From positions 1 through 64,000 of the IMG/VR virus record IMGVR_UViG_3300036770_004732: 64,000 bases of DNA; one strand, given 5' to 3'. The stretch comes from a virus. Position numbers and translations under genes: made by a program. Positions 21,273 through 39,571 of the stretch are shown in pieces. Below the pieces are notes generated by a model, which did not search any database, was not told where the DNA came from, and saw only the letters and a list, made by a program, of their open reading frames with translations. The stretch's first letter is position 1. Each line of letters opens with the position of its first letter.

Positions 21273-23366
21273 CTATCCACTAATTTTTTCTATTTTTGAA
21301 TGCAATTCTTTAATACATTCTATTAATGCTGCAACTAATCCACTATAATTGACTGTTTTTTTGTTATCTGTAGTGAAAACAAGTTCTGGAAATATTTTTT
21401 CAACATCTTGTGCTAGCACACCCATTGATGGATTATTAGTATCTTTCCAGTTAAAAGTTATACCTCTGAGTTGATTAATTTTTTCGATTGGATTTTCAAT
21501 ACTTTTTATATTATATTTTAAATTTTCGTCAGATGATGAGGTAAAATCAACTGCAGTTATATATCCAGTAGAAGGATTAAATGTTAATTTAGATGTTGTT
21601 ATTCCGATTGAAGTAGAAAGTCCAACATTAGTCGCATATGTGAGATAATATTCGGAATTGGTTGAAGAATCATCATATATTAATATTTCATTTGAACCTT
21701 GAAGACCTTGAGTACCCTGAAAATTACTTAAAGGTCCTTGAAGACCTTGAAGACCTTGAAAATTGCTTAAAGATCCCTGAAGTCCTTGAAGACCTTGAAG
21801 ACCTTGAGTACCCTGAAGACCTTGAGTACCCTGAAAATTACTTAAAGATCCTTGAAGACCTTGAAGACCCTGAAGACCCTGAAGACCTTGAGTACCCTGA
21901 AGACCTTGAGTACCCTGAAGTCCTTGAGTTCCCTGAAAATTACTTAAAGATCCTTGAAGACCTTGAAGACCCTGAAGACCCTGAAGACCCTGAAGACCCT
22001 GAAGACCTTGAAGACCTTGAGTGCCTTGAAGTCCTTGAGTACCTTGAAAATTACTTAAAGCACCTTGTATTCCCCTAACATAATTTCCTAAATCATAAAC
22101 AATAGCATCAATAACATCACCTACACTTGCACCATCTACTAAATTTACATAAATGCCATCAGTTGCAACGTATTCTGATGGTGTTAAATGTGATCCATTC
22201 AAATAAATTTCAATAAAGTCTTCAGTATACCAAACATCTCCACTTGCACTAAATTGAGTTTGTCCCTCAGTAGAGGTAAAAGTATACGTAGTTATTGTGG
22301 ATGCGTAAGTTGGTTCTGCCGCTAATCCTTGAATACCTTGAATACCTTGAAGTCCTTGAACACCTTGAAGTCCTTGAACACCTTGAACACCTTGAGTACC
22401 CTGAAAATCACTTAAAGAACCTTGAAGTCCTTGTCTCCCTTGAGTACCTTGTGTTCCTTGAGCACCTTGTGTTCCTTGAAAATTACTTAAAGAACCTTGA
22501 AGTCCTTGTGTCCCTTGAGCACCTTGAACACCTTGAGTTCCTTGAAGACCTTGAGTTCCTTGAAGACCTTGAGTTCCTTGAGTTCCTTGAGCACCTTGAA
22601 GACCTTGAAGACCTTGAGTACCTTGAAGACCTTGAAGTCCTTGAGTGCCCTGAAAATTACTTAAAGAACCTTGAAGACCTTGAAGACCTTGAGTACCCTG
22701 AAGACCTTGAAGACCTTGAAGACCTTGCGTACCTTGAAGACCTTGAAGACCTTGAAGACCTTGAATTCCTTGAAGTCCTTGAGTGCCCTGAAAATTACTT
22801 AAAGATCCTTGAGCACCTTGAAGACCTTGAGCACCTTGAAGACCTTGAGCACCTTGAAGACCTTGAGCACCTTGAAGACCTTGAGCACCTTGAAGACCTT
22901 GAGTACCCTGAAAATTACTTAAAGAACCTTGAAGACCTTGGAGACCTTGAGTACCTTGAAGACCTTGAGCACCTTGAAGACCTTGAGCACCTTGAAGACC
23001 TTGAGTTCCTTGAAGACCTTGAGTTCCTTGAGCACCTTGAAGACCTTGAGTACCTTGAAAATTACCTAAAGAACCTTGTGTTCCTTGAAAATTACTTAAA
23101 GCGCCTTGAACACCCTGAGAACCATCTTGTCCAGAACCCTGTTGATCAGTTGATTTAATCCAATATCTACTTCCAAGATACCCATCAACAGAAATTAAAA
23201 CATACTGTTCTCCTTCTGGAACAGGTTTTACTCCAACAGATGATACTCCAACTATAGGATCACCTAAATCTGGTTCGGCTTGCTCTAAACCAAGAAACTC
23301 ATATCTATCTGAGGTTATTCCTGTCTGATCAAATTTTTTTACTCTTCCAGAATTATATTTTCCCAT
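21273..23366 (-). CDS. collagen-like fibre protein with S74 chaperone (697 aa)
   Basis: The N-terminal about 80 residues ([20 protein letters not shown]) form an attachment head. Two collagen-like blocks of Gly-X-Gln triplets (GLQ, GTQ, GAQ) follow, encoded at about 23120-22320 and 22075-21690. They are separated by a small beta domain ([20 protein letters not shown]...) and broken at intervals by LSNFQ. The C-terminal 86 residues are an S74-type chaperone: SDENLK at 612-617 provides Ser-x4-Lys, and [15 protein letters not shown] is the family signature. Predicted to be a trimeric triple-helical fibre whose chaperone is removed by autocleavage. Confidence 0.85.
21690..23120. repeat. collagen-coding minisatellite (shorter fibre)
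   Basis: Nine-base units (variants of CTTGAAGAC on the plus strand) repeat over two blocks, about 21690-22075 and 22320-23120, encoding Gly-X-Gln triplets. Long perfect runs make replication slippage and length variation likely. Confidence 0.9.
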
Positions 23367-23376
23367 ATCACTTTAA

Positions 23377-23739
23377 TTATTGTTTTGCTGTTTCAAGCAC
23401 ACTTAAAATTAGAGACAAGACACCATTTTCGTTACTTTGAATTTTAATGATATCACTAGTTTCTAAAGCCAGTCTTCCATCAGAAACTAAATTATAACTA
23501 TCATTAGGCGGAACTGGTACTGAATTTGCAATTTTATAATCTATGTTTGGTGTTTCTCTTGGTCTAGAATGAAATGCAGTTACAGTATATGTACTAGACG
23601 CTGCTCCAGAAGATACATTAACTACCTGAGACAAAATAACAATTGAAGAAACACCAATGGGACAAGTATAAATTCCCACATTGTCTGTAGTAATTCCAAC
23701 TCTAATAGTTCTGAATTTATTAAGTGCAACTGCTGCCAT
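23377..23739 (-). CDS. hypothetical virion-associated protein (120 aa)
   Basis: Begins MAAVALNKFRTIRVGITTDN, wholly beta-stranded (VSSIVILSQVVNVSSGAAS, TYTVTAFHSRPRET). It lies 10 nt before the 697-residue fibre gene and 2 nt after the 2059-residue fibre, so it is co-transcribed with them. It is probably a small beta-sandwich such as a fibre connector or decoration protein, judging from position and composition only. Confidence 0.68.
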   Translation of the reverse strand: MAAVALNKFRTIRVGITTDNVGIYTCPIGVSSIVILSQVVNVSSGAASSTYTVTAFHSRPRETPNIDYKIANSVPVPPNDSYNLVSDGRLALETSDIIKIQSNENGVLSLILSVLETAKQ

Positions 23740-23741
23740 TA

Positions 23742-26700
23742 CTATCCTAATGCAATAATTAAAGGTGTTACTGTATTTAACAAACTTTGATTAAACGCTC
23801 TTCCACTAATTGTTCCTGTAAGTTGATTAATCACTATACCCTCACCAATTTGGAAGTTACCAGACTGGTTTGTGCTGGTGTAAACAACTTGACCACCATT
23901 TCTCATGTCAACTTCATTTTCTTGAATTGAAACACCACCTAATGCTGGTTTTGCACTATTGATATTAGTACCAGAACCTACCCATTCTAATGAAATTGAT
24001 GTTGCAATTTGAAGACTTAATCTAGAAAAGTAAACAGTTGTTCCAACACTAACTATATTATTTAGATTTTGTGTAAGAGTAATTGTTGAAATTCCTGAGA
24101 TTGGAAGAGTTGCAGATTCAATATTGTAATATAATGGATACATTACTGCCTCAGCCGTTGCTCCACCATCTATTACAATAGATGGTGGATTTAAATATTG
24201 ACTACCATTACTAATGATATCAATAGAAGTAATTTGACCTGATTGATTAACATTTGCCGATGCTTCGGCAGTAATTCCATTAGGACCTTCTGGATCTCCT
24301 AAAGTAACTGTTGGAGGATTATTTGGATCATATCCACTACCACCATCAATTACATTAATTGAATTGACCTGATAATATAATTCTCCAAAATATATTGCCT
24401 GACCATCATAAGGTCTATTTTTTCCAACGCCAGATACTACAATAACTGCAGTATCTTCTTCAGGTTCTTCTAAAACTTCTCCAGTATAACGATAAATTGA
24501 TTTTGATTCATAATCGCCAACACCGTCAGATACTAAACCATAGTTACCAAATGAACAATTTGAATTCGTAATATCACATTGTCCACCGGATTTAGTAAAA
24601 ATTCCTATGTCATCACAAATAGTAAAAATTGAAACTAATTGAGAGTATGCACCATTTGTAATAGATACTCCAATTCCACCTTGATTATATTGAGTGTATG
24701 AATCAACACTCATTGTACCAGTAACACCAATATCATCTTGATCACCTGGTTCTGCATTGAACCCATCAACTCTCATTCCAATACTATCGCCAATGAAGTT
24801 GGTACAATTTCTAATATAAGGTCCTTGTGTGATTGGTCCAACACCTCTAGAGTATGGTGGTTTAACGACGCCACCAGAAACATAACTGTGTGCCATTGGT
24901 GCAGTACCTACATTCACGGTAAAAGTAGTTCCTGTTCCAACTACACTTAAGACTCTAAAATTGTATCCATTATTTCCAGTTGGATAAATTGTTGTAGTTC
25001 CCGAACCACTTAAACAAGAGAACTCTAAATCTCTTAATGAAATAATATCATTAACTTTTACATTTAATCCTGGGGCAACAATGGTAGTGATACCGCTAAG
25101 GTGATCGTATGATGCTGATGTAATTCCTATAGCACGATTAATTGCATACCCACCAGAAACATAATTGTGTGGTATTGTTGAAACACCAGTATAAACATCA
25201 AAAGAATTATCACTGTAAACTTTATTAACATAAAATTCATATCCATAATATCCAGATGGAAATCTTTGTGTTGATATTGATCCACTAGATGAACAGGAGA
25301 ACAATAAGTCACGTATTTCAACCATATCACCAACTTTAACTGACAAACCTGGGGCTTTTAATGTAGTTTTACCAGAAGTCTCATTATATACTGCACTCGT
25401 AATGCCTACAACTGTTGTAAATCCTGTTCCTCTATTTCCAGGGTATGATGTAGTAATTCCAGATTGTGAACCAAGACCAACAATTGTGGTAACTACACCA
25501 ACACAAGAATGAATTGCCGACACAACATTTGCACATCCATTAATTGCATTATTAAAACCAGTGTCTGGATCTACTTGCATTGAAAGATCCTTTACCTGAG
25601 TAAAATCATTTTGGAAATTCGTATATTTTTGCACACTTCCACCAGAAACATAAGTATGTGGAAGAGTTGATTGACCAACTACAACTTCAAAAGTATTAAT
25701 TCCTACTACTTTATTAACATTAAAAATGTAACCATAAGATCCAGTTGGATATGTTAATGTTAAAGGACCTGATGGACAAGTAAATCCCAAACCAATAATT
25801 TTTACTGAATCATTTTTGGACAATCCATGATTTATTGCTGTAATTGTAGTAATTCCAGTTATATTATCATATTCAGCATCTATTACTGTTGTACCAAGTC
25901 CAACAGGATATCCTCCCCAGGTAACATTATTAATTACTGCGCGTGAAATTTCATATGAATAATTTAATGTTGCAATTGTTTGTTGAACTTCTTCGGGATT
26001 CTTAAGAATTTGTGGTATTAAATTCCAATTATCATCATAATATGATTTTCCTGCACCAACACACTTAGAATTTCCACCTCTGGTAATATCATGTATAATG
26101 CATTTCCAAATGTCTTTTACATCATCAGCACAATCTTGACTTTCAAGTGTTACACCGTAAATTGTTGTTACTCCCACAGAATAGTTAAAATCACCAAGAA
26201 TATTTGTAATAATTCCTGCACGATTCTGTATTGTAGAAACAACACCAACACAACCACCAGGAACTAAAATTGGAGAATAACTAAAATCTTGTACTAATGA
26301 ACTATATGTAGTAACTCCAGAAAGTGACGCATAATCTGTATTATCAATAACATGAGTTGCAATACCTATAGCATAATTAATTGCATCAATAGTTGCTTCT
26401 TTAACACTATAACCATTAAGATCGTTACCAGTAATGTGTAAAAGTGTTCCTTCAGAACTATAGTAAGATAATCCAGCACCAATTGATTTTTTATTACTTC
26501 CCGCCTTTAAATCGTATGAAATTGCATCAATAATTGACTTAATATCATCCTCACAGTTTACTGGATCAGTTGCAATTCCTGAAGAATTTACAACAGTAAA
26601 TGCAGGATTCTTGTAATCTGTTGATGTTAAGAATCCAATTGTTTCTGCAGCAATAAAATCTTTATTTAAATCAATAAGTCTAGCAGCGTCTTGCTCCCTA

Positions 26701-29700
26701 TGAGATCCTGCAAATCCACTAAATCCACTTGTTAAGAATCCTACAGACTCTTGAGCAATGTAATCTAAATTATAACGAATCATTCTTGCAGCATCAAAAA
26801 ATCTATCGGAAGAAACACCTTCTAAAGGTTGTAATGATATAACTGCTGCCCCATCAGTCATTGGTGCCGAAATAAAACTTAAATCTGTAACGTGACATCC
26901 ATTATTAACATAAAATAAATCTCTATCACGATTAAGTGGTGTAATTACACAATTTCTAAGTTCTGTTCCTTCAACAGAAACTGTTTTTGCAAGAACAATT
27001 GGATTATCTTCAAGATAAGTTCCAGGAAATACTTTGATTGTGTCACCAAATACGGCAACAGAGGCTGCAGACTTGATAGTTCTTTTTGGATAATTTTCAG
27101 CCAATCCAGTATTATTATCATTTCCATTTTGTGATACGTAAATAGTCTTTCCAACTGGTTTGTAAGCATCTACTGTTACAGCACCTTTACCAAAATCTTG
27201 AGAAGAACTAATGTCTACACCGATTCCAGGAATTAACTGAGTTACAATACCAACTAAATTAATTCCCCCACCATAATAATCTGTTGCAGTTGCAGTTCCA
27301 ACAACTGTTAAAGTATTTGTAATTGTGCTTGTTCCAATACCAATACTTCCAGATACTGGATCAAAAACTAATTTTTCTGGATTAGTAAAAACAGAAGATA
27401 TTGAAGCGTTTGTTGTAGTTGAAAATGTTGGATAAGTAATATTATTTTCATAATAAGGTCTGACATCAATATTATTATTACCAATTGGTCCTTGAAGACC
27501 TTGAGTACCTTGAGTACCTTGAGCGCCTTGAGTACCTTGAGCGCCTTGAGTACCTTGAAGTCCTTGAATACCTTGAAGTCCTTGAATACCTTGAAGACCT
27601 TGAGTACCTTGAAGTCCTTGAAGACCTTGAGTTCCTTGAAGACCTTGAATACCTTGAATACCTTGAAGTCCTTGAGTACCCTGAGATCCTTGAGTACCCT
27701 GAGGTCCTTGAGTACCCTGAATTCCTTGACGACCTTGAGTACCCTGAAGACCTTGAAGACCTTGAGTACCCTGAAGACCTTGAGTACCCTGAAGACCTTG
27801 AGTACCCTGAAAATTACTTAAAGGTCCTTGAAGACCTTGGAGACCCTGAAGACCCTGAAGACCTTGAGTTCCTTGAAGACCTTGAGTTCCTTGAAGACCT
27901 TGAGTTCCTTGAAGACCTTGAGTTCCTTGACGACCTTGAAGACCCTGAAGACCCTGAAGACCCTGAAGACCCTGAAGACCCTGAAGACCTTGAATACCTT
28001 GGAGACCTTGAAGACCTTGAAGGCCTTGAAGACCTTGAGTACCCTGAAAATTACTTAAAGGTCCTTGAAGACCTTGAAGACCTTGAAGACCTTGACGACC
28101 TTGACGACCTTGAAGACCTTGTGTTCCTTGAGTGCCCTGAAAATCATTTAAAGATCCTTGAAGACCCTGAAGACCTTGAAGTCCTTGATTACCTTGAAGA
28201 CCTTGAGTACCTTGAGTACCTTGAAGACCTTGACGACCTTGAGTACCTTGAAGACCTTGACGACCTTGAGTACCTTGAAGACCTTGACGACCTTGAGTTC
28301 CCTGAAAATTACTTAAAGGTCCTTGAATACCTTGTGTTCCTTGATCACCTTGATCACCAACACCTTGAAGTCCTTGAAGTCCTTGAGTGCCCTGAAAATT
28401 ACTTAAAGATCCTTGAACACCCTGGTTACTTAAACCTTGAAGACCTTGAAGACCTTGAAGACCTTGGAGACCTTGTGTACCTTGAAAATTACTTAAAGTA
28501 CCTTGAGTACCTTGATCACCAACACCTTGAGTACCTTGACGACCTTGAAGACCTTGAAGACCTTGAGTGCCCTGAAAATTACTTAAAGAACCTTGAAGAC
28601 CCTGAAGACCCTGAAGACCTTGAGCACCTTGAGCACCTTGAGTTCCTTGAAGACCTTGAAGACCTTGAGTACCTTGAAAATTACTTAAAGTTCCTTGAAG
28701 ACCTTGAGTACCCTGAAGACCTTGAAGTCCTTGCGTTCCTTGAAGACCTTGAAGACCTTGAAGACCTTGAAGTCCTTGAGTGCCCTGAAAATTACTTAAA
28801 GATCCTTGAAGACCCTGAAGACCTTGAGTACCTTGATCACCAACACCTTGAGTACCTTGACGACCTTGAGCACCTTGAAGACCTTGAGTACCTTGAGTAC
28901 CTTGAGCGCCTTGAGTACCTTGAGCGCCTTGAGTACCTTGAAAATCATTTAAAGCTCCTTGAAGACCTTGAAGACCTTGAGTACCCTGAGTTCCTTGATC
29001 ACCTTGAAGACCTTGCGTACCTTGAGTACCTTGACGACCTTGAGTTCCTTGAGCACCTTGGGTTCCTTGAGCACCTTGGGTTCCTTGACGACCTTGAAGA
29101 CCTTGAGTACCCTGAAAATTACTTAAAGGTCCTTGAAGACCTTGAGTACCTTGACGACCTTGAAGACCTTGAGTACCTTGACGACCTTGAAGACCTTGAG
29201 TACCCTGAAGACCTTGAGTACCCTGAAAATTACTTAAAGGTCCTTGTAGACCCTGAAGACCCTGAAGACCCTGAAGACCTTGAGTACCTTGACGACCTTG
29301 AGTACCCTGAAGTCCTTGAGTTCCCTGAAAATTACTTAAAGGTCCTTGAAGACCTTGAAGACCCTGAAGACCTTGAAGACCCTGAAGACCCTGAAGACCC
29401 TGAAGACCTTGAGTGCCCTGAAAATTACTTAAAGTTCCTTGAAGACCCTGAAGACCTTGGAGACCTTGGAGACCTTGGAGACCTTGGAGACCTTGGAGAC
29501 CTTGGAGACCTTGAAGACCTTGGAGACCTTGAAGACCTTGGAGACCTTGAAGACCTTGAAGACCTTGAAGACCTTGAAGACCTTGAAGACCTTGTGTTCC
29601 TTGAGTGCCCTGAAAATTATTTAAAGATCCTTGAAGTCCTTGAGCACCTTGAGTGCCTTGAGTACCTTGAAAATTACTTAAAGCACCTTGAAGACCTTGA

Positions 29701-29921
29701 AGACCTTGAAGACCTTGAAGACCTTGAAGACCTTGAGTTCCTTGAGTACCTTGAAAATTACTTAAAGCACCTTGGAGACCTTGTGCTCCTTGAGCACCTT
29801 GAGCACCAAATTTTTCACCGGTGTCACCATTTATTGCATCACCATAAGCAACCATACCTTTAAAGAAAGTTACCTTTTCGTTAAAATAAGACTCGTTACC
29901 AGTTACTGTAATATCTGCCAT
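23742..29921 (-). CDS. giant collagen-like tail fibre (2059 aa)
   Basis: The head (MADITVTGNESYFNEKVTFF) is followed by about 770 residues of Gly-X-Gln collagen triplets ([15 protein letters not shown]) encoded between 29815 and 27485. The triplets are broken at intervals by LSNFQ or LNDFQ, giving a 7-residue Gly-to-Gly step. Gln fills nearly every Y position; Lys is absent, and Pro appears mainly as GPL or GPQ. The C-terminal 1,240 residues are beta-helix-like (KTIYVSQNGNDNNTGLAENY, GDTIKVFPGTYLEDNPI), with repeated SYVSGG and GYEFYVNKV motifs. No S74 domain. It sits directly after the needle and hub genes. Confidence 0.85.
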   Translation of the reverse strand: MADITVTGNESYFNEKVTFFKGMVAYGDAINGDTGEKFGAQGAQGAQGLQGALSNFQGTQGTQGLQGLQGLQGLQGLQGALSNFQGTQGTQGAQGLQGSLNNFQGTQGTQGLQGLQGLQGLQGLQGLQGLQGLQGLQGLQGLQGLQGLQGLQGLQGLQGLQGTLSNFQGTQGLQGLQGLQGLQGLQGLQGLQGPLSNFQGTQGLQGTQGRQGTQGLQGLQGLQGLQGPLSNFQGTQGLQGTQGLQGRQGTQGLQGRQGTQGLQGPLSNFQGTQGLQGRQGTQGAQGTQGAQGTQGRQGTQGTQGLQGDQGTQGTQGLQGLQGALNDFQGTQGAQGTQGAQGTQGTQGLQGAQGRQGTQGVGDQGTQGLQGLQGSLSNFQGTQGLQGLQGLQGLQGTQGLQGLQGTQGLQGTLSNFQGTQGLQGLQGTQGAQGAQGLQGLQGLQGSLSNFQGTQGLQGLQGRQGTQGVGDQGTQGTLSNFQGTQGLQGLQGLQGLQGLSNQGVQGSLSNFQGTQGLQGLQGVGDQGDQGTQGIQGPLSNFQGTQGRQGLQGTQGRQGLQGTQGRQGLQGTQGTQGLQGNQGLQGLQGLQGSLNDFQGTQGTQGLQGRQGRQGLQGLQGLQGPLSNFQGTQGLQGLQGLQGLQGIQGLQGLQGLQGLQGLQGLQGRQGTQGLQGTQGLQGTQGLQGTQGLQGLQGLQGLQGPLSNFQGTQGLQGTQGLQGTQGLQGLQGTQGRQGIQGTQGPQGTQGSQGTQGLQGIQGIQGLQGTQGLQGLQGTQGLQGIQGLQGIQGLQGTQGAQGTQGAQGTQGTQGLQGPIGNNNIDVRPYYENNITYPTFSTTTNASISSVFTNPEKLVFDPVSGSIGIGTSTITNTLTVVGTATATDYYGGGINLVGIVTQLIPGIGVDISSSQDFGKGAVTVDAYKPVGKTIYVSQNGNDNNTGLAENYPKRTIKSAASVAVFGDTIKVFPGTYLEDNPIVLAKTVSVEGTELRNCVITPLNRDRDLFYVNNGCHVTDLSFISAPMTDGAAVISLQPLEGVSSDRFFDAARMIRYNLDYIAQESVGFLTSGFSGFAGSHREQDAARLIDLNKDFIAAETIGFLTSTDYKNPAFTVVNSSGIATDPVNCEDDIKSIIDAISYDLKAGSNKKSIGAGLSYYSSEGTLLHITGNDLNGYSVKEATIDAINYAIGIATHVIDNTDYASLSGVTTYSSLVQDFSYSPILVPGGCVGVVSTIQNRAGIITNILGDFNYSVGVTTIYGVTLESQDCADDVKDIWKCIIHDITRGGNSKCVGAGKSYYDDNWNLIPQILKNPEEVQQTIATLNYSYEISRAVINNVTWGGYPVGLGTTVIDAEYDNITGITTITAINHGLSKNDSVKIIGLGFTCPSGPLTLTYPTGSYGYIFNVNKVVGINTFEVVVGQSTLPHTYVSGGSVQKYTNFQNDFTQVKDLSMQVDPDTGFNNAINGCANVVSAIHSCVGVVTTIVGLGSQSGITTSYPGNRGTGFTTVVGITSAVYNETSGKTTLKAPGLSVKVGDMVEIRDLLFSCSSSGSISTQRFPSGYYGYEFYVNKVYSDNSFDVYTGVSTIPHNYVSGGYAINRAIGITSASYDHLSGITTIVAPGLNVKVNDIISLRDLEFSCLSGSGTTTIYPTGNNGYNFRVLSVVGTGTTFTVNVGTAPMAHSYVSGGVVKPPYSRGVGPITQGPYIRNCTNFIGDSIGMRVDGFNAEPGDQDDIGVTGTMSVDSYTQYNQGGIGVSITNGAYSQLVSIFTICDDIGIFTKSGGQCDITNSNCSFGNYGLVSDGVGDYESKSIYRYTGEVLEEPEEDTAVIVVSGVGKNRPYDGQAIYFGELYYQVNSINVIDGGSGYDPNNPPTVTLGDPEGPNGITAEASANVNQSGQITSIDIISNGSQYLNPPSIVIDGGATAEAVMYPLYYNIESATLPISGISTITLTQNLNNIVSVGTTVYFSRLSLQIATSISLEWVGSGTNINSAKPALGGVSIQENEVDMRNGGQVVYTSTNQSGNFQIGEGIVINQLTGTISGRAFNQSLLNTVTPLIIALG
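27485..29815. repeat. collagen-coding minisatellite (giant fibre)
   Basis: About 2.3 kb of nine-base units, variants of CTTGAAGAC or CTTGAGTAC on the plus strand. The perfect GACCTTGGA run near 29455-29510 is the most homogeneous part. The tract encodes the Gly-X-Gln triplets and also leaves long artefactual open frames on the opposite strand. Confidence 0.92.
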
Positions 29922-30664: not shown

Positions 30665-32845
30665 TTATGTGATACAATCTTTTACAAACTTGGTTTCTCT
30701 TATAGAAGATTCATTTGATCTAATTACTTCAATTGGCAATTTATCTAAAATTGGGTTTAAAATAGCACCAGTGCCAGTTTCAGATTCAATGGTAATTATC
30801 GGCAAATCTTCAACAACAATATAGTTATTTATTATTAATCGTGGAGTTGATAATGTTGTAGGTGTTGTAATTGAATCTGAAATGATATTATCATCAACAC
30901 CCAAAACATCTTCAAGACTATCAATACTAACACTAACTATTGATCCATCTTCATCAACGGCAATTGAGTATTGATTTCCAAAATCATCAAATCCTTTATC
31001 TGTTGACTGATATCCAAATCCAGACTGTTCAATGTAAACATTAGAAACATAATTTGGTATTTGTGCTGGATTTGTTTCTGCAATTTCTTCAGCAGTATTA
31101 ATATTGACATTTCCTATTGGATAATTTTCCCCCTCAGATACCATATAAACATCAACCACTTCACCATTTTCGTCAATTACAGTTCTTGCAACAGCACCAT
31201 ATCCTTGTTCACAATCATCAACAATTTCTACAAATGGTGGATATTTATATTTTTTACCTCTTTTCTTAAGTTTTATACCAATGACACTTGCAGTTATAAC
31301 TTCAGATGAGTCTGTAGAAAATGATCCAAGAATAGCTTCTGCTTCTGCACCTTCTCCAGATCCTCCAAATATTTTAACTTTTGGTGCAGAGCAACTTGTT
31401 CGTTGCTGCGTATAGCATCCACCAACATCACTTTCATTTTGTATATTTTTTGTTTTTTCCGAAAAAATATCCCACCCAGATTTAATATCTTTAACACCAT
31501 CAACTACATCTGCAATTGCATTTGCAGTATTCATATTTTTAAGAATACTTGCAAATTTTACAGCATCTTCGCCAGCATCAACAATTCCTATTCCGATTGT
31601 CCATTCTTCAACACCACCCACAGATTTATTTTTATTTTGATTGACATCAAACAATCCACCAATTGATCTTATAGCACTTACTCCGCTTCTTAGAAAATTA
31701 CCTACACTAGAAACACCAAAAGATACAAATTGCAATATTTTCATTATTCCTTCTAAAGGAGAAGAAATTGCACTTTGTATTTTTCCAATAATGTCATTTA
31801 ATAAAGATCCTACAAATTGATCCCCAACACAAGATCTAAAATATCTGACATTTTTTACAACATCAGTTAACATACTCTCAACAGTTTTGAATATACTATT
31901 AGCAACAATACCTGCTATTTTTGGAATGTATGACTCAAGTAACTTTACAGGTATAACCATTGCTTTTTGTGCCGCGACACCAGCCAAATGAGCGACGGCT
32001 GGGTTTTGTGTAGCAGCAAGAACAGCAGCATAAACTGCTTTATATAATGCTTCTAATCCTTTTTGTATTAAAGGAATTAATTTATTATATAAAGAATTAA
32101 TTGCCTGCCCAACAAATCCATTTGAAATACCAACAATTTTATCTACAGACCTACTAATCTCTGGTTTTACATTTTGGATTTTATTTGTTACGTCATTAAC
32201 TTTTTGTAATAGATTATTAACTTCCGCTCCAATTCCTTTTGCAACAGTATCATTACTTGAGTTACCAAGTACAATTTTTTTACCTACTCCAGAAAAATAA
32301 AATACTTCATCCTTTGCTTCACTTTTTTGATTTAACTTACTTATAATTTCTGGTGTTACATCTCTTGGAGATTTTTGAGAATTGCTTTTTTCTTCACTCG
32401 ATTCAGATTTATATAAAGTTCCATTTGGTGGTGGTATTCTTTCAGTATAACCAGTAAAAGGCACAAATGGAGACCTAAAACTTGTACTAGGCACTTGATC
32501 TGTTCTACCAAAACAACCAATAATAACTGGTATTTGAGCATTATCACCATCTAAAAAGAATCCAAGTACAGTATCCCCAGGTCTTAGTTTTGGATTAACT
32601 GCATAATTTGCTGCACCACTTCCCGATGTTGGTGGCATGAGAACTTGTGCCCAAGGAAGATCATCATTTGAAAGTTCCGCTGTACTATAAGGATGATAAC
32701 CTAAAATTCTAACCTTTGTTCTATTTCCCCATCCACCACCATTTGCTTGAGTTTTTTGCGCTTCAATAGGTGGAATCTGTCCAATCCACCATCTAAACCC
32801 ATCTCTCCCTATAAAATTACTTTTAAGTATTGACTCGTCAATCAT
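30665..32845 (-). CDS. gp5: baseplate hub spike protein, gp5-like OB-fold (726 aa)
   Basis: The N-terminal about 150 residues (IGRDGFRWWIGQIPPIEAQK, NRTKVRILGYHPYSTAELSN, RPGDTVLGFFLDGDNAQIP) match the gp5/VgrG-type OB-fold. A long Ala-rich helical middle (AVYAAVLAATQNPAVAHLAG) and a beta-rich C-terminal part follow. No lysozyme motif is visible, in contrast to T4 gp5; a muramidase-like region instead occurs in the 662-residue protein at 34164-36152. The start overlaps the gp27-like stop as ATGA. It would form the central spike under the tail tube. Confidence 0.72.
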   Translation of the reverse strand: MIDESILKSNFIGRDGFRWWIGQIPPIEAQKTQANGGGWGNRTKVRILGYHPYSTAELSNDDLPWAQVLMPPTSGSGAANYAVNPKLRPGDTVLGFFLDGDNAQIPVIIGCFGRTDQVPSTSFRSPFVPFTGYTERIPPPNGTLYKSESSEEKSNSQKSPRDVTPEIISKLNQKSEAKDEVFYFSGVGKKIVLGNSSNDTVAKGIGAEVNNLLQKVNDVTNKIQNVKPEISRSVDKIVGISNGFVGQAINSLYNKLIPLIQKGLEALYKAVYAAVLAATQNPAVAHLAGVAAQKAMVIPVKLLESYIPKIAGIVANSIFKTVESMLTDVVKNVRYFRSCVGDQFVGSLLNDIIGKIQSAISSPLEGIMKILQFVSFGVSSVGNFLRSGVSAIRSIGGLFDVNQNKNKSVGGVEEWTIGIGIVDAGEDAVKFASILKNMNTANAIADVVDGVKDIKSGWDIFSEKTKNIQNESDVGGCYTQQRTSCSAPKVKIFGGSGEGAEAEAILGSFSTDSSEVITASVIGIKLKKRGKKYKYPPFVEIVDDCEQGYGAVARTVIDENGEVVDVYMVSEGENYPIGNVNINTAEEIAETNPAQIPNYVSNVYIEQSGFGYQSTDKGFDDFGNQYSIAVDEDGSIVSVSIDSLEDVLGVDDNIISDSITTPTTLSTPRLIINNYIVVEDLPIITIESETGTGAILNPILDKLPIEVIRSNESSIRETKFVKDCIT

Positions 32846-34164
32846 TTTTTCTGTCCGAAGGTATCTCTGATTAGTTTCATAGAGGTATAAGAACTTTCAG
32901 TATCAAAATGGTGACATAATTCCTTTATCATATATAGTCCACTTGTTTCCTGGTCAAATTCTTTTTTATCAGAACTGCTAATTTTTGGAAAATTACATTC
33001 AATTATATTTCCAGCACTTAAATTTGTGTTTAGGGGAACTATTATATTTAATTGTTGAGTAAACAGACTGTTATATCTCATCAAAGATTGTGATTGATAC
33101 TTCTGAGGATCAGAATTTTTATCCGTAGATACATTTTGCTCTAATGTTCCAACATCTAATATTTGAGTGATCATTCTTGAAGGAATATCTCCAAGAGTCT
33201 GATCAGAACCATCAGAAACTTTTGGTAATTTTAATCTATCGCCAAGATTCTCAGTTGACTTTACATAATCACTTTGCTTGAATAACCCTTCTTCTGGATT
33301 TGAAAATTTAAAGTCCAAGGGATTGAAAAACATTCTATGACTTGCATATGTCCCTAGTCTTAATTTTTCAATTAAATTTTGATTTCGATCAATAAAATAA
33401 TTCAGAATCTTAAAGTCATTATTAATTTTACCACTATCTGAATAAGATTCAACTGCTTCACTGTAAATATAAGTTGCCTTTGATTTTTCTTTATTCATTT
33501 CATCAATAGATCTAAAATTAAATCCATCTTTTGTTTGATAGAATAGAAATCCTGCTGTACCATCTTTAGATTCTACTGGTACAGATTTAGACGCTAACCA
33601 AGTTAAAATCGTAAATGGTTTTCTCATATTTCCAATAAAACCATACTTATTAGAAGTCTTATCAATTTTACCAATTTTATTTGATCTTAATACTTCCTTT
33701 AAAATCTTCTCTACAGACCCATCAATACTTAATGTTGTTGGATACTTTCTTGTAACTCTTACAGTTTCATTTGTAATTGCTTCCCTTGGAACTAAATGCA
33801 ACGTAAAACTTTCTTTCTGTGTTTCTGCAATTACATCAGTAATACTTGAAACATAAAAATAGTTTTCAACTTTGCTTGCAAAATCTAAAGCAATATTTGT
33901 TCTCGTATTTGGTTTCATTTTAAGTGCTAATCTTTCACCACCTCTCAGAGGAAGCCCGTTATATAATGATTGTTTGCTGATATCTTTTTCAGTGGAGGCA
34001 GAATTTCCAGTGTTTACTATTTTTAATTTTGCAGTAACAATAGGTGAAAATATATCTTCATAATATTCAAATGCTACAATAGATGTTCTTAGATCAATTC
34101 TCTGTTTTTGATCATTTGATTCTATTAATACTGTATCGTATATGGACTTTGTTGCTGCTTCCAT
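32842..34164 (-). CDS. gp27: baseplate hub protein, gp27-like (440 aa)
   Basis: Begins MEAATKSIYDTVLIESNDQK. The segment FEYYEDIFSPIVTAKLKIVN is characteristic of tail hub proteins that join the tube to the spike. A later region (FRSIDEMNKEKSKATYIYSE) also fits the family. Length is near T4 gp27 (391 aa). The gene is coupled by TAATG to the upstream gene and ATGA to the gp5-like gene, the expected gp27-gp5 pairing. Identification rests on motif and synteny. Confidence 0.72.
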   Translation of the reverse strand: MEAATKSIYDTVLIESNDQKQRIDLRTSIVAFEYYEDIFSPIVTAKLKIVNTGNSASTEKDISKQSLYNGLPLRGGERLALKMKPNTRTNIALDFASKVENYFYVSSITDVIAETQKESFTLHLVPREAITNETVRVTRKYPTTLSIDGSVEKILKEVLRSNKIGKIDKTSNKYGFIGNMRKPFTILTWLASKSVPVESKDGTAGFLFYQTKDGFNFRSIDEMNKEKSKATYIYSEAVESYSDSGKINNDFKILNYFIDRNQNLIEKLRLGTYASHRMFFNPLDFKFSNPEEGLFKQSDYVKSTENLGDRLKLPKVSDGSDQTLGDIPSRMITQILDVGTLEQNVSTDKNSDPQKYQSQSLMRYNSLFTQQLNIIVPLNTNLSAGNIIECNFPKISSSDKKEFDQETSGLYMIKELCHHFDTESSYTSMKLIRDTFGQKK

Positions 34165-36152
34165 TAGAGGTAATTAAAATCTAAGAGTAATTTTTGTTTC
34201 ATAAATTTATTTAACAGATCAAACTCAGCAATTTGACCAGAAACACCACCACCATAAGATTTTTGAGATCCTACAGAAACTGATGGTTGTTGTGCAGATG
34301 ATCTGTCATCAATAAAAAGAAACTGCTGTCCCATTCTTTCAGTTGTTACCGAATCAGCAACTGCTCTTTGTTGTTGTGACACCGCAGAAGAAATCTGTGG
34401 TTGTTGTGCAGCAGGAGTTACTTCCTTTTCTGATGGAATTTTTGCAAGTTGAGGAGAAACCTGACTCGCTTTTGATCCTGCAGCACCATGAGATACGGTG
34501 ATTCCTCCACTTCCTATAATTTCTGCTTCTCTACCATAACCACCACGATAGTAAACTTCACCAACAGCAAAAGGGAACTTAGTTGCAGATCCTGGTTGTG
34601 AAGGAAATGTTTGTTTTGTTTTTGGATTGTGCTCTTGAATATCAACTCCTGCACTACTTCTTGCACCATGTGCTCTTTGCTCCGCAGCAATCAATGCTTT
34701 TAATTCAGAATCTGATACATTACTGTAAACATCCTTTTTAATATTTCCAAAGTGAACCCAAGATCCTCTAGCAAACATTGCTTTTACTGCTTGGAAGGAA
34801 ACTTCTCTAATGTTTGCCAATTGTGCTGCAGATGGATTTGTAGTTTTTGCATCAATGTGGAAGTGAGTTGCATAGGTAGTATCACCACCACTTCCGGATC
34901 CACCTTGAATAAATCCACCAGATCCAGTCTGAGGAATCAAATTCATTGTTCCTGTAGATGTTGGTCTTGGTGGTGCAGATGAAGATTGCTGTTTTACTTG
35001 AGCAAGGACAGATTTTACCTTTTCTGGTTTAAGAGAACTACTTTGTCCGGAATATGAGAAATTTCCATACGCATTAGGTAATGCTGCCCATACATCCGCC
35101 AAACCTTGCATGAAGTCTTCGGTTTTCATTTTACCAGATAACCAAGAATTACCTCCTTTTCCTTCAATGAGTTTTACTGCAAGAACATCTTGAACTTGTG
35201 GACTAAAAACTGTGTTCTCATTATATCCAGCCGCTTTTGCTCTTCCAAGAAGAAATTGTGGCATTTGTTGATATCGACCAGAAGCACCGGGAGCAGTTCT
35301 AGCAATTTCGCCAATAGTCATTTGACTCAATCCAGGTCTAACTCCCCCAGGAGCACCATTTTGAGCATCATAACCATTATTTTTTTTATCTGTTGATGAT
35401 TCGACCGAATGTATTAAATCAAGTAAAGGTTTCCATCTTCCACCACCACTTCCACCCCCAGGAGTAGGTGCTGGAACTCCTGAAGATTCAGTATCAGGTT
35501 GTTGTTCCCCAGTAGAAGGTATATCAACCTCCCCAGTTGGTTCTAAAAGTGCTTTAAATCCGTCTGCAATTTGTGTTCCTAATAACTCTACCGTACTAGT
35601 CAATTCCGAAAATGAATTTCTTATATCACCAGAAGAATCAGTAAAATCTAAGTTACGTATATCTCTACTAATAAAACCTAATGTTGTACCAAATGATTGA
35701 AGAATTCGGTACATTGTTTGTGGTATAGAGTATATAATTTCTCCCGCTTTTTTCATTCTTGCAATGAATTCTTTTCCCATTGCAATCCAGGTAGGGAGAT
35801 TCTCTAAAATCCATCCCGCTCCAAGATAACCAAGAAAGGATAAGATTCTACTAAGAGGCCCTTGACTACTGGAAGATGCAACTCTTAGTCCAGACTGAAA
35901 ATTTGTTGTTACTTTTGATGCCTCTATTTGATCCTCATATTCTTTTCTTTTTGTTGCCTCTTTTCTTCTTCTTTCTATTATTTGATTTTTAAAGAATAAA
36001 TCACTTCTTACTTTAGTTTTTGTTTCTATTATTTTTTGAATTCTACCAATTGTTACATTAGAACTTGTTAAAGTAGAACGAGTACTAGATATTGATTTTG
36101 ATATTAAATTAATACTAGATGTTTGAGATATAACTTCTGCGGTTGCTGCCAT
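34164..36152 (-). CDS. tail protein with muramidase-like domain (662 aa)
   Basis: The N-terminal third is a coiled coil (KVRSDLFFKNQIIERRRKEA) plus a hydrophobic segment (RILSFLGYLGAGWILENLPT) that resembles the equivalent segment of the next protein (SYLFGGWLTNQV). Residues about 240-395 look like a lysozyme/muramidase: LLDLIHSVESSTDKKNNGYD, GLSQMTIGEIARTAPGASGR, GRYQQMPQFLL and FSPQVQDVLAVKLIEGKGG. The Glu in HSVES is a candidate catalytic residue. A Ser/Gln-rich linker and a C-terminal domain with YATHFHIDA follow. It probably digests peptidoglycan during injection. Confidence 0.65.
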   Translation of the reverse strand: MAATAEVISQTSSINLISKSISSTRSTLTSSNVTIGRIQKIIETKTKVRSDLFFKNQIIERRRKEATKRKEYEDQIEASKVTTNFQSGLRVASSSSQGPLSRILSFLGYLGAGWILENLPTWIAMGKEFIARMKKAGEIIYSIPQTMYRILQSFGTTLGFISRDIRNLDFTDSSGDIRNSFSELTSTVELLGTQIADGFKALLEPTGEVDIPSTGEQQPDTESSGVPAPTPGGGSGGGRWKPLLDLIHSVESSTDKKNNGYDAQNGAPGGVRPGLSQMTIGEIARTAPGASGRYQQMPQFLLGRAKAAGYNENTVFSPQVQDVLAVKLIEGKGGNSWLSGKMKTEDFMQGLADVWAALPNAYGNFSYSGQSSSLKPEKVKSVLAQVKQQSSSAPPRPTSTGTMNLIPQTGSGGFIQGGSGSGGDTTYATHFHIDAKTTNPSAAQLANIREVSFQAVKAMFARGSWVHFGNIKKDVYSNVSDSELKALIAAEQRAHGARSSAGVDIQEHNPKTKQTFPSQPGSATKFPFAVGEVYYRGGYGREAEIIGSGGITVSHGAAGSKASQVSPQLAKIPSEKEVTPAAQQPQISSAVSQQQRAVADSVTTERMGQQFLFIDDRSSAQQPSVSVGSQKSYGGGVSGQIAEFDLLNKFMKQKLLLDFNYL

Positions 36153-36153
36153 C

Positions 36154-37878
36154 TTAGATCACCACATTATAGCAGGAATATGAATATAATGTATAAAAAT
36201 TATCTGGATTAGATGAACGAATCATAGGAACATCAGTCAAAGGCCCATTTGTTGAAGTTTGATTCATTTGAGCACCTTGTTGTTGAGAAGATCCAGAAGA
36301 TGCATAAATGATATTTGGTTTTGGTTCTGGGAGTTCTCCAACATTAGGTGTTTGTGTCGGAACACTTTGAATTTGTGCTGGTTGTATTGGTGAAGTTTTT
36401 GGAGGTATATTTTCTTCTGATTTTAAATTATTATAATTTTCTAGGAAATTGTCAGTATTTCCAGGTTTAAATGTGGACGATGCATCAAAACTTAATTCTT
36501 TATTTCCAGGTAACATTGCTTGATTGGGTTTTACTTCGTTATCAGGAGGTTTTTCTGCAATTGTACTTGAAAAATCAAAAGTATTATTTGCAGAAAGATT
36601 AAATGTATTTGAATAATCTGGAAAATTTATTTTTGGTTCTGAAACCATTTCTTGTTGTGGAGATGGTTTTAATGCTTCAGTTTTTTGTGTTGCTATTGAC
36701 TCTGCATTTGCAGGCAAAACTAATGGTTGTGCAGGTTTTGCCTCTGCTTGAGGTTGTTGCTTATTTAACGATTGTGTAGGTTTTGCTTCTTGTTGAGGTT
36801 GTGATTGATTTCCGAAAAACTTATCATAAATTCCTTTGCCAAAATCTGCAGATGGACTATAAGCAAGAGCACTTGAAACCACACCACTTCCAGGAATAGG
36901 TAATAAAGATCCTGCAGCAAATGCCGCTGCTGATCCAATCATACCCGTAGTTGCTCCTGCAACTGCACGACCAGGATCTTCACCAGATGCAATATCAATA
37001 CCTGTCATTGCAGATCCAACTAGTAATGGTGCTGCTAATCCTCTTATAAAGTTTCCTGCTCCACTTGCCATACCCTTAACTGCACCACCAAGTCCACCAC
37101 CAGGAGGTTTTGCTCCTCCTGGTGGTTTTGCTCCTCCTGGTGGTTTACCTCCCCCACCAGGAGTTACTATGTTCTTGATAATATTAAATGGTGCCGCTAC
37201 TGTTCTACCCAGTAACTTAGCAATTTGACTAACAGCAAACCCTAAAGAAGTTTTTAACGCTCCAATACCAAATTTTATTGCTAATATTGTTCCACCAGCA
37301 ATAGAAAGATATTTGAGAATATTATTTTTAATCTCTGTTAATCTTTCATTATTTCCTTCACCTTCCGCCTTAATATATTCAATAACTTGATTTGTTAACC
37401 ATCCACCAAAAAGATAACTAAGAGATTGCAGAACATTTCCAAATAAACTTTGCACTTTTGGTGCAAGTGCTGCAACTGGAGCAACAATTGCATTTTGTAT
37501 TTTCTTCTCTATCTCACTTTCTTTTCCAATTCTTACTTGTTCTTCTGCAAGTCTTCTTTCACTTTCTTGTTGTGCTCTCAGTATGCTTTCTTCATTTGTT
37601 GCATCCTGTTGTAATAATGTAGAAATAGTGATTAAACCAGTATTTAACTGATTTATGTCTTGTCTTATTAAATTAAGTCCACTTTGAACTTCAACTAAAG
37701 ATGCTTGATTTTGTTGAAGTGTTTGAAGATTCTTAATCTCAGTTTCACTTGGAGTTACTCCAGATAATAAATTAGTTCCTCTTATGGTTTGTCCAGATAC
37801 TGTTGTATTTCCAGCAATAACTTGCCTAGACTCTTGAGAAAGAGGAGAACTTGTAAGTGGTGTGACCTGTTCAGCCAT
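36154..37878 (-). CDS. candidate tape-measure protein (574 aa)
   Basis: Begins MAEQVTPLTSSPLSQESRQV. Helical coiled coil (LQQNQASLVEVQSGLNLIRQ, AQQESERRLAEEQVRIGKES) is followed by hydrophobic helices (YLSIAGGTILAIKFGIGALK), a Gly/Pro loop (KPPGGAKPPGG) and a low-complexity Pro/Gln tail. It follows the gp26/gp51 pair, the position of a tape measure after tail-assembly chaperones. Its length is close to T4 gp29 (590 aa). The start overlaps the gp51 stop in an 8-nt ATGGCTGA. Sequence similarity to gp29 is not evident by eye, so the call is by position and architecture. Confidence 0.55.
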   Translation of the reverse strand: MAEQVTPLTSSPLSQESRQVIAGNTTVSGQTIRGTNLLSGVTPSETEIKNLQTLQQNQASLVEVQSGLNLIRQDINQLNTGLITISTLLQQDATNEESILRAQQESERRLAEEQVRIGKESEIEKKIQNAIVAPVAALAPKVQSLFGNVLQSLSYLFGGWLTNQVIEYIKAEGEGNNERLTEIKNNILKYLSIAGGTILAIKFGIGALKTSLGFAVSQIAKLLGRTVAAPFNIIKNIVTPGGGGKPPGGAKPPGGAKPPGGGLGGAVKGMASGAGNFIRGLAAPLLVGSAMTGIDIASGEDPGRAVAGATTGMIGSAAAFAAGSLLPIPGSGVVSSALAYSPSADFGKGIYDKFFGNQSQPQQEAKPTQSLNKQQPQAEAKPAQPLVLPANAESIATQKTEALKPSPQQEMVSEPKINFPDYSNTFNLSANNTFDFSSTIAEKPPDNEVKPNQAMLPGNKELSFDASSTFKPGNTDNFLENYNNLKSEENIPPKTSPIQPAQIQSVPTQTPNVGELPEPKPNIIYASSGSSQQQGAQMNQTSTNGPLTDVPMIRSSNPDNFYTLYSYSCYNVVI

Positions 37879-38047
37879 TATTTGATCCGTTCTTTAAATT
37901 TTCCTCTTCAATATACTGTTGAAGTAGAGAAACGTACACCTCTCTCTCCCAAGGTATCATATTTTCTAAGTCTGTCAAGCTATATTTATGATGCTGAAGA
38001 AGGGCAAAATTAATCTTATAATATGACGCAAGACTTTCATGCGCCAT
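37871..38047 (-). CDS. gp51: gp51-like small tail-assembly protein (58 aa)
   Basis: A 58-residue ORF beginning MAHESLASYYKINFALLQHH, with LENMIPWEREVYVSLLQQYI in the middle. Small proteins with an 'iPWERE-Y' core follow gp26 in T4-like cyanophages and resemble the T domain of tail-assembly chaperones. Its ATG lies 2 nt after the gp26 stop with no clear Shine-Dalgarno. Its frame is -1 relative to gp26 and can be reached from the slippery site at 38056-38062. The stop overlaps the next start by 8 nt. Confidence 0.72.
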   Translation of the reverse strand: MAHESLASYYKINFALLQHHKYSLTDLENMIPWEREVYVSLLQQYIEEENLKNGSNNG

Positions 38048-38049
38048 TG

Positions 38050-38769
38050 CTAGGCGAAAAAACTTGTCAGGCCCTCTAATACAATTTTATTTTCAACTTC
38101 AGTATTTGGATTTATAACATTAATTGTATGACTTAGTTTTGGCATCGTTTCAAAGAATTTTTCAATTTTTTTAAATTGCTTCGAACTTAAAGATTCTAAG
38201 AAATCACTTAACTCTTTTTTACTACAATCAGATGCTGCCCAAGATTCTTCTTCACTGTAAATCTGTTCAATGCAAGATGTAATAACTCCAAATGTATCCT
38301 CTACACTAATTTGATCATTGCGAATAAAGTTATTTTTGATAAATTCTGTAATTGATGGATATTTCATCCGCACACTCAGATTATCATCCAATTGAATATC
38401 ACGACTATGATCTTTACTTACTTCAACCTTAATATCATCCAAACTAATAGTTACTGGTACTTGTGTCTCCCCATCATCTGGGCAAGTAATTAATACCTCT
38501 GCAGTTTCACCTACAGATTTTCCCCTGATATTTAAAAACAAATATTCTATATCGAAAGTTGCAAGATCATCAACTTTAATTCCTCTGGTAATAATGCAAT
38601 TTTTAATTACATCCTTTACTGCTTCAGTAATTTGCTTTGGTTCTTCACTCTCCATCGCAATGATTAAAATTTTCTCTTCTTTAACTAAAAAAGGTCTATA
38701 TTTAATTGTTTTCTTTAATGAAGGAATTTCCAACTCATATGTTGGTGTAGAAACTTTTGGTAATGGCAT
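38050..38769 (-). CDS. gp26: baseplate hub subunit/tail-assembly chaperone, gp26-like (239 aa)
   Basis: The ATG at 38769 (MPLPKVSTPTYELEIPSLKK) is preferred to an upstream TTG. Motifs of the T4 baseplate gp26 family are visible: TYELEIPS, RPFLVKEEKILIIAMES, IDDLATFDIEYLFLNIRGKS (here VDDLATFDIEYLFLNIRGKS), CPDDGETQVPV. T4 gp26 is 208 aa. The mRNA end reads AGT TTT TTC GCC TAG, containing a slippery heptamer (see the separate feature). In T4 it is listed as a hub component; its position before a tape-measure candidate also fits an assembly chaperone. Confidence 0.8.
   Translation of the reverse strand: MPLPKVSTPTYELEIPSLKKTIKYRPFLVKEEKILIIAMESEEPKQITEAVKDVIKNCIITRGIKVDDLATFDIEYLFLNIRGKSVGETAEVLITCPDDGETQVPVTISLDDIKVEVSKDHSRDIQLDDNLSVRMKYPSITEFIKNNFIRNDQISVEDTFGVITSCIEQIYSEEESWAASDCSKKELSDFLESLSSKQFKKIEKFFETMPKLSHTINVINPNTEVENKIVLEGLTSFFA
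38056..38062 (-). promoter_or_regulatory. candidate -1 ribosomal frameshift site (T TTT TTC)
   Basis: In the gp26 frame the last codons are AGT TTT TTC GCC TAG. The heptamer T TTT TTC fits the X XXY YYZ slippery rule. A -1 slip gives CGC CTA GCA ATG GCG and continues into the gp51-like frame with no stop, yielding a fusion of about 299 residues. Confidence 0.6.
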
Positions 38770-38794: not shown

Positions 38795-39571
38795 TTAGAC
38801 TGCTTTTTGATTCCCAGTCAGACTTGTATATAGTTCTCCTCTTACAATTGCTTCGGTTGGTGTTAAATTAGATGGTCTGAAAACAACTCCAGAAGTTCCT
38901 GCCTGACCAGGAGACATTGGAACTCTGGACACTCTTCTAATTGGATCATTATTTATTGATGTATGAGTATAAACTGAAAGACTTGTTGTTCTTCCAGAAA
39001 TATAACGATCATATTCGAATGTAGCAGCAACTTTTAGCACATCAGATGTCCCATATGAGATAGGTACACTTGAAATTGAAACAGGAAATAATCCTCTAAA
39101 AGTATATTCTATTTCTCTTCTGTAATCTCTATCAAACTTTATAATTCTAGTTTGATCTGATTTATATGTAGATGGATATTGCATCCTAATAAAATAATCA
39201 TTTGAAATTGGATTGGCAGAAGATCCGCTAGCAATATAGTCCATCCAATGTTCCAGTAATTTTAAAGTATTATAATTACTATCTACATAAAATTCTAATG
39301 TTATATTAGTATATAATCTTGTATGTGCTATCTTTTCTCTAATCCCAATATATGGTGATACTTCTGCTGTAGCAAATGACGATGTTGGTAATGATGCAGA
39401 AAAACATAATAATCCAAAATCTCCACCAGTAAAAAATGGAGTAATACCTTTAGTCAATAAAAAAGTTGATAACTCATTTGGAAGTCCACCAAATTGAACT
39501 TCATAATGAGATGTTTGTGCTAGATTTCCAAATAAAGATTTTACGCTAGATATACTTCTGGGAAAAGGCAC
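38795..39571 (-). CDS. gp54: tail tube/baseplate initiator protein, gp54/gp19-like (258 aa)
   Basis: Begins MPFPRSISSVKSLFGNLAQT with a GTG start at 39571; an in-frame stop just upstream rules out an earlier start. Segments HYEVQFGGLP, CFSASLPTSSFATAEVSPYI and REKIAHTRLYTNITLEFYVD have the pattern of tail-tube-fold proteins (T4 gp19, gp54, gp48). The gene sits beside gp26 and opposite gp4, consistent with the gp54-type tube initiator. A short tube protein would also share this fold, so the exact T4 counterpart is less certain than the fold. Confidence 0.68.
   Translation of the reverse strand: MPFPRSISSVKSLFGNLAQTSHYEVQFGGLPNELSTFLLTKGITPFFTGGDFGLLCFSASLPTSSFATAEVSPYIGIREKIAHTRLYTNITLEFYVDSNYNTLKLLEHWMDYIASGSSANPISNDYFIRMQYPSTYKSDQTRIIKFDRDYRREIEYTFRGLFPVSISSVPISYGTSDVLKVAATFEYDRYISGRTTSLSVYTHTSINNDPIRRVSRVPMSPGQAGTSGVVFRPSNLTPTEAIVRGELYTSLTGNQKAV

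Follow-up and report, generated by a model that had tools for sequence, protein, structure and literature searches.

Does the short reading frame that follows gene 26 in this viral DNA encode a protein of its own, or is it the far end of a longer chaperone, which ribosomes would reach by slipping back one base just before the gp26 stop codon? We addressed this question in the window, i.e. the whole 64,000-nt stretch that was analysed, which comes from a virus record of 111,301 bases and appears to derive from a T4-like cyanophage, judging by its nearest named gp26 relatives (among them Synechococcus phage S-SRM01, with 75% identity, and Prochlorococcus phage P-SSM2, with 70%). We favor the second answer, at a probability of roughly 93%: the sequence points to a tail assembly chaperone locus of a Kyanoviridae-type T4-like cyanophage, in which a minority -1 slip would give a 299-aa protein, TAC-NC, besides the 239-aa TAC-N. 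This reading is based on sequence, phase, conservation, stimulatory elements, start-codon loss and a counterpart in T4, and from these we infer the slipping itself, its rate, and the chaperone function. The features on which the argument turns are the following.

38795-39571, minus strand: tail tube gene (phrog_45, profile match), directly upstream of gp26
38050-38769, minus strand: gp26, the putative TAC-N and zero-frame product, 239 aa, with its ATG at 38769 (PF12322, phrog_150; 'baseplate hub' family)
38072-38076, minus strand: SD-like element GAGGG, a candidate frameshift stimulator (anti-SD pairing, codon bias)
38056-38062, minus strand: slippery heptamer T TTT TTC, one codon before the gp26 stop
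38050-38052, minus strand: gp26 stop TAG, the second codon after the heptamer (direct reading)
38023-38047, minus strand: downstream stem-loop with an 8-bp stem (arms 38040-38047 and 38023-38030)
37871-38056, minus strand: putative -1-frame extension (TAC-C, 'gp51'), RLA plus 58 aa and a stop (phrog_634, C-terminus of phrog_150)
37871-38047, minus strand: gp51-like ORF, 58 aa, between gp26 and the 574-aa gene
36154-37878, minus strand: 574-aa product, candidate tape measure (position directly downstream; weak phrog_794 match)
34164-36152, minus strand: 662-aa protein, the gene after the 574-aa one
32842-34164, minus strand: tail protein at the gp27 position, after the 662-aa gene

Read directly on the minus strand, the 3' end of gp26 is GAG GGC CTG ACA AGT TTT TTC GCC TAG CA ATG GCG. 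A sequence-only reading of the window had proposed a -1 frameshift at this place, and its description of the junction proved accurate: T TTT TTC lies in slippery phase, its TTT and TTC being codons of the zero frame, the -1 frame (CGC CTA GCA ATG GCG) is free of stops to the end of the gp51-like ORF, and only 2 nt separate the gp26 stop from the gp51 ATG (TAG CA ATG). Translation of the slip product gives a fusion of 238 + 3 + 58 = 299 aa, which reads ...SFF-RLA-MAHESLASYY... across the junction. The same reading had named the downstream ORF 'gp51-like'; it is continuous with gp26 in the -1 frame, but is better regarded as the C-terminal domain of the putative fusion than as a gene of its own.

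The two parts of this product fall into known families. The gp26 protein matches PF12322 (hmmscan, E 6.9e-73) and phrog_150 (E 2.8e-80), and PF12322 occurs in a single copy in the 111-kb record, which may itself be a fragment. The gp51 peptide matches phrog_634 (E 3.4e-27) and the C-terminus of phrog_150 (E 1e-6), and no Pfam family above the cut-offs. T4-type gp51 matches PF12322 over its full length (E 4e-55) and reaches the end of phrog_150 and into phrog_634; T4 gp51 is therefore a 249-aa gp26-like protein plus C-terminal domain, not a 58-aa protein. According to PMC3004832, T4 assembly requires gp51, yet the particle does not contain it. Homology to T4 gp26 and to the C-terminal domain of T4 gp51 supports the proposal that gp26 and gp51 are the cyanophage TAC-N/TAC-NC tail assembly chaperone pair, with chaperoning as their presumed function. 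Structural comparisons were less informative: a PDB sequence search with T4-type gp51 returned no match, and for an AlphaFold model of gp26 (pLDDT 87; modelled from IMG/VR loci and the window), only the HK97 entries 2OB9 and 3FGX exceeded a probability of 0.5 among the PDB matches listed (0.5-0.6, E about 2). The resemblance of the predicted fold to the HK97 tail assembly chaperone 2OB9 is weak at this E-value, and no more than suggestive. Matches of the model to predicted viral structures were mostly to baseplate hub / gp26 proteins.

The expectation that the heptamer and the -1 phase would be kept in relatives was strongly borne out. In the window and in all 80 of its closest IMG/VR relatives (68-91% gp26 identity), gp26 ends with the codons NNT TTT TTC NNN stop. 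When relatives found with cyanophage, Pelagibacter, C48C1 and Stenotrophomonas queries were added, yielding 161 non-redundant gp26 junctions, TTTTTTC or TTTTTTT lay in slippery phase near the stop in 156 of them (TTTTTTC one codon before the stop in 139, TTTTTTT directly at the stop in 13, and either motif at a neighboring codon in 4), and the -1 frame was open for 55-68 codons beyond the stop position in nearly all relatives. Such counts are not counts of events, since the relatives are not phylogenetically independent. The motif is also found in phages of Pelagibacter (HTVC008M), Stenotrophomonas, Vibrio (PVA8), Aeromonas, Caulobacter, Sinorhizobium, Rhizobium, Xanthomonas and Cronobacter, the other named carriers outside the cyanophages being C48C1, Mendera, vB_AdhaM_G2, phiM7, Cr30, IG49, X1 and LPCS28. 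Among relatives in culture, P-SSM2 and S-SRM01 share the junction seen in the window. Two further loci (L175 and L197) lack the heptamer at a point where, against near-identical relatives, their gp26 frame looks interrupted or displaced; sequencing or assembly indels are the probable cause, and the two loci were not counted as counter-examples.

Conservation of this kind could also arise if the two phenylalanines and the run of T were kept for protein or codon-usage reasons only, with no role in frameshifting, and the terminal Phe-Phe is indeed nearly invariant as protein, even in T4-type gp26, which has no extension. Because Phe-Phe itself is nearly invariant, what matters is the choice of codons, which we compared with usage at other sites in 135 gp26 genes from relatives (96.7 kb). 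There, TTTTTTC occurs twice, once in slippery phase; TTT makes up 72% of Phe codons, and TTT TTC encodes only 3 of 137 Phe-Phe pairs. At the heptamer site the pair is always TTT TTC, and the preceding codon always ends in T, whereas third-base T elsewhere varies from 30% to 87% by residue. In T4-type gp26 (RB32, Melville), which has neither heptamer nor downstream extension, the same Phe-Phe is kept as TTC TTT. These codon-level data largely refute a protein or codon-usage origin, to which we give hardly any credence, and indicate that the heptamer at the end of gp26 is not there by chance.

Upstream of the heptamer, a second element appears to be maintained at the codon level. The SD-like GAGGG lies about 10 nt upstream, within Glu-Gly codons 14 nt upstream, and the Glu codon at this site is GAG (followed by GGN) in 115 of the 135 genes, compared with 33% GAG elsewhere. 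Where GAA is used instead, GGG follows in 15 of 20 genes, as against 7% elsewhere. Predicted pairing with the anti-SD has a sharp minimum at this offset, at about -8 kcal/mol, and the median over 156 junctions is -7.1 kcal/mol, compared with -3.3 at the start of gp26 itself and 0.0 at the gp51 ATG. GAGGG thus seems to be kept through codon choice, and it fits the role of a frameshift stimulator.

Downstream, an 8-bp stem begins 8 nt after the heptamer, and the gp51 AUG falls within its 5' arm. The window's own stem-loop is only moderately better than shuffled sequences (MFE -11.3 kcal/mol, z -1.59); across 40 relatives the 40-nt segment starting 6 nt past the heptamer has a mean z of -2.77, and 60-nt segments past the heptamer have a mean z of -2.09, versus -0.84 for controls within gp26. 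RNAalifold on pooled alignments found no structure, probably because hairpins differ between subgroups: the exact 8-bp hairpin is limited to part of the family, and other subgroups show hairpins of their own close to this position. The stem was therefore counted in the subgroup of 99 relatives that carry the ATG at the window's position. Here, 86.7% of stem cells are paired, versus 22-51% for slid partners, and the covariation score of the stem was reached by 0 of 500 shuffles. Covariation is clearest between the Ala2 codon, at its synonymous third base, and codon 7, at its second base, for which we counted GCT-GAG 44 times and GCG-GCG 22 times, with GCT-GCG and GCG-GAG both at 0. That a synonymous base should track its partner in this way is hard to explain without base pairing, although relatedness inflates the counts.

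The same region bears on the main alternative, raised with the original proposal, in which ribosomes terminating at the gp26 UAG would begin again at the AUG that follows after two bases, to give a free 58-aa gp51 and no fusion. The ATG 2 nt past the stop, in the window and in most close relatives, is what such termination-reinitiation would use, but no ATG is present within codons 1-12 of the -1 frame in 32 of the 156 heptamer-bearing junctions, and in 21 of the 156 there is no ATG, GTG or TTG. Even in junctions without a start codon, such as L046 (TAG CCC TCT CCC ACA), ACG-2014d and HTVC008M, the -1 frame is open and conserved; where the start codon is absent, fusion would therefore be the only way to make the domain, barring use of an uncommon start. 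Where the gp51 ATG does exist, it has no SD before it (the median of 0.0 kcal/mol given above) and sits in the hairpin stem, and reinitiation would leave the codon-level conservation of T TTT TTC without explanation. We consider reinitiation as the sole route highly improbable. An arrangement with both products, in which the frameshift fusion is accompanied by a minor reinitiated free gp51 where the ATG is kept, is compatible with our preferred reading, and an early -1-frame ATG is present in 124 of the 156 junctions; but that ATG may be kept owing to its position in the hairpin stem, and it lacks an SD; we regard a second product as unlikely.

Public annotation reflects the missing start codons, in that gp51 is absent from ACG-2014d, vB_AdhaM_G2 and LPCS28 and starts late in HTVC008M and C48C1, gaps that arise because no start codon precedes the conserved domain. 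The loci at which public annotation leaves out gp51, or begins it too far downstream, are L090, L087, L204, L082 and L083.

The proposal had further cast the 574-aa product as the tape measure. Its position fits, but its profile similarity is weak and the next gene shares its N-terminal region. The match to the tape-measure family phrog_794 has an E-value of 5e-4, comparison of the 574-aa family with the HTVC008M tape measure gave a probability of 38% (hhalign), and against T4-type gp29 BLAST found nothing and profile comparison gave 0.9%. The 574-aa and 662-aa families have about 117 N-terminal residues in common (hhalign 98%, E 3e-13), and therefore either could be the tape measure; we retain the 574-aa protein as an unproven candidate that fits the position. 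Elsewhere in the window, at 21273-29921, two large proteins of 697 and 2059 aa carry collagen-like QGLQGTQG repeats, and the long antisense ORFs over these genes look like repeat artefacts.

In the frameshift reading that we prefer, most ribosomes would stop at the gp26 UAG and release the short chaperone TAC-N of 239 aa, while on U UUU UUC a minority would shift back by one base, bypass the stop, and produce the 299-aa TAC-NC with its gp51-like domain. The slip would be helped by the mRNA hairpin 8 nt downstream and, about 10 nt upstream, by the SD-like GAGGG. If they act as lambda gpG/gpGT do, TAC-N and TAC-NC together may bind the tape measure, whose gene would lie immediately downstream, fold it, and recruit tail tube subunits.

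One group of relatives departs from this pattern. Ackermannviridae-type gp26 genes (Salmonella GG32, Dickeya phiDP23.1, Vibrio K447) are without a canonical heptamer and end in ATT TTC ATT TAA or CTT TTC AAG TAA, and relatives of this type (L198, L199, L085) have an open -1 frame with a similar domain after gp26. The earliest start codons in GG32 come as a GTG ATG some 11 codons beyond the gp26 stop. A scan of IMG/VR for relatives of the Vibrio K447 gp26 found none. It is possible that the Ackermannviridae-type long form is made by a non-canonical slip or by some other route.

If the frameshift reading is right, it is misleading to annotate a 'baseplate hub assembly catalyst' as a gene in its own right, and that entry should give way to the C-terminal part of a frameshift fusion. 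The reading also favors regarding the products of T4 genes 26 and 51, which go by the name of hub proteins, as a tail assembly chaperone pair supplied by two genes instead of a frameshift. Moreover, the aligned natural variants make the roles of the SD-like element, the heptamer and the hairpin directly testable.

Several known systems resemble this locus. The E. coli dnaX cassette has, as in the window, an SD-like element about 10 nt upstream, a heptamer, and a hairpin a few nt downstream, the spacing of SD-like element and heptamer being similar; it differs in its heptamer (A AAA AAG), in that the shift leads to a shorter product, and in belonging to an unrelated gene. Lambda gpG/gpGT, an instance of the conserved tail-gene frameshift of dsDNA phages, likewise has a single locus that gives a short chaperone and, when ribosomes slip by -1 shortly before the first ORF ends, a long one, at a site upstream of the tape measure (in the window a candidate only), although the lambda heptamer is G GGA AAG, unlike T TTT TTC. 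The conserved dsDNA phage frameshift was reportedly described by Xu, Hendrix and Duda in 2004, and Vladimirov, Gautam and Davidson (2022, Virology 566:9-15) are said to have found frameshifting conserved in several T4-like groups, with T4 using genes 26 and 51. Two papers that refer to Vladimirov et al. 2022 (PMID 34826709) relay that in the TAC-N genes of T4-like phages poly-T is an established -1 signal (PMC12846349), and that some T4-like phages have separate short and long chaperone genes instead (PMC10885494). On these second-hand accounts, the chaperones of Vladimirov et al. 2022 share the gp26 family, the gp51 domain and the poly-T -1 signal with the window; a frameshifted gp26 would thus already have been reported in general for T4-like phages, and the window, whose putative frameshift is therefore of an already known type, would be a further case. 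The SD-like element, the hairpin and the loss of start codons are evidence additional to those reports. We hold it possible, at somewhat below even odds, that two things are together undescribed: a cyanophage or marine cassette of SD-like element, heptamer and hairpin, the hairpin leaving the fusion as sole product by enclosing the gp51 AUG, and a different Ackermannviridae-type route to the long chaperone. A further comparison is with T4-type phages themselves (RB32, Melville), in which gp26 and gp51 both belong to PF12322 and gp51 ends in the same C-terminal domain as the window's extension, but the short and long forms come from separate, divergently transcribed genes 26 and 51, whereas the window has one locus. 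T4-type gp26 is thereby a natural control, in which the slippery codons are missing in precisely the case where a second gene supplies the long form.
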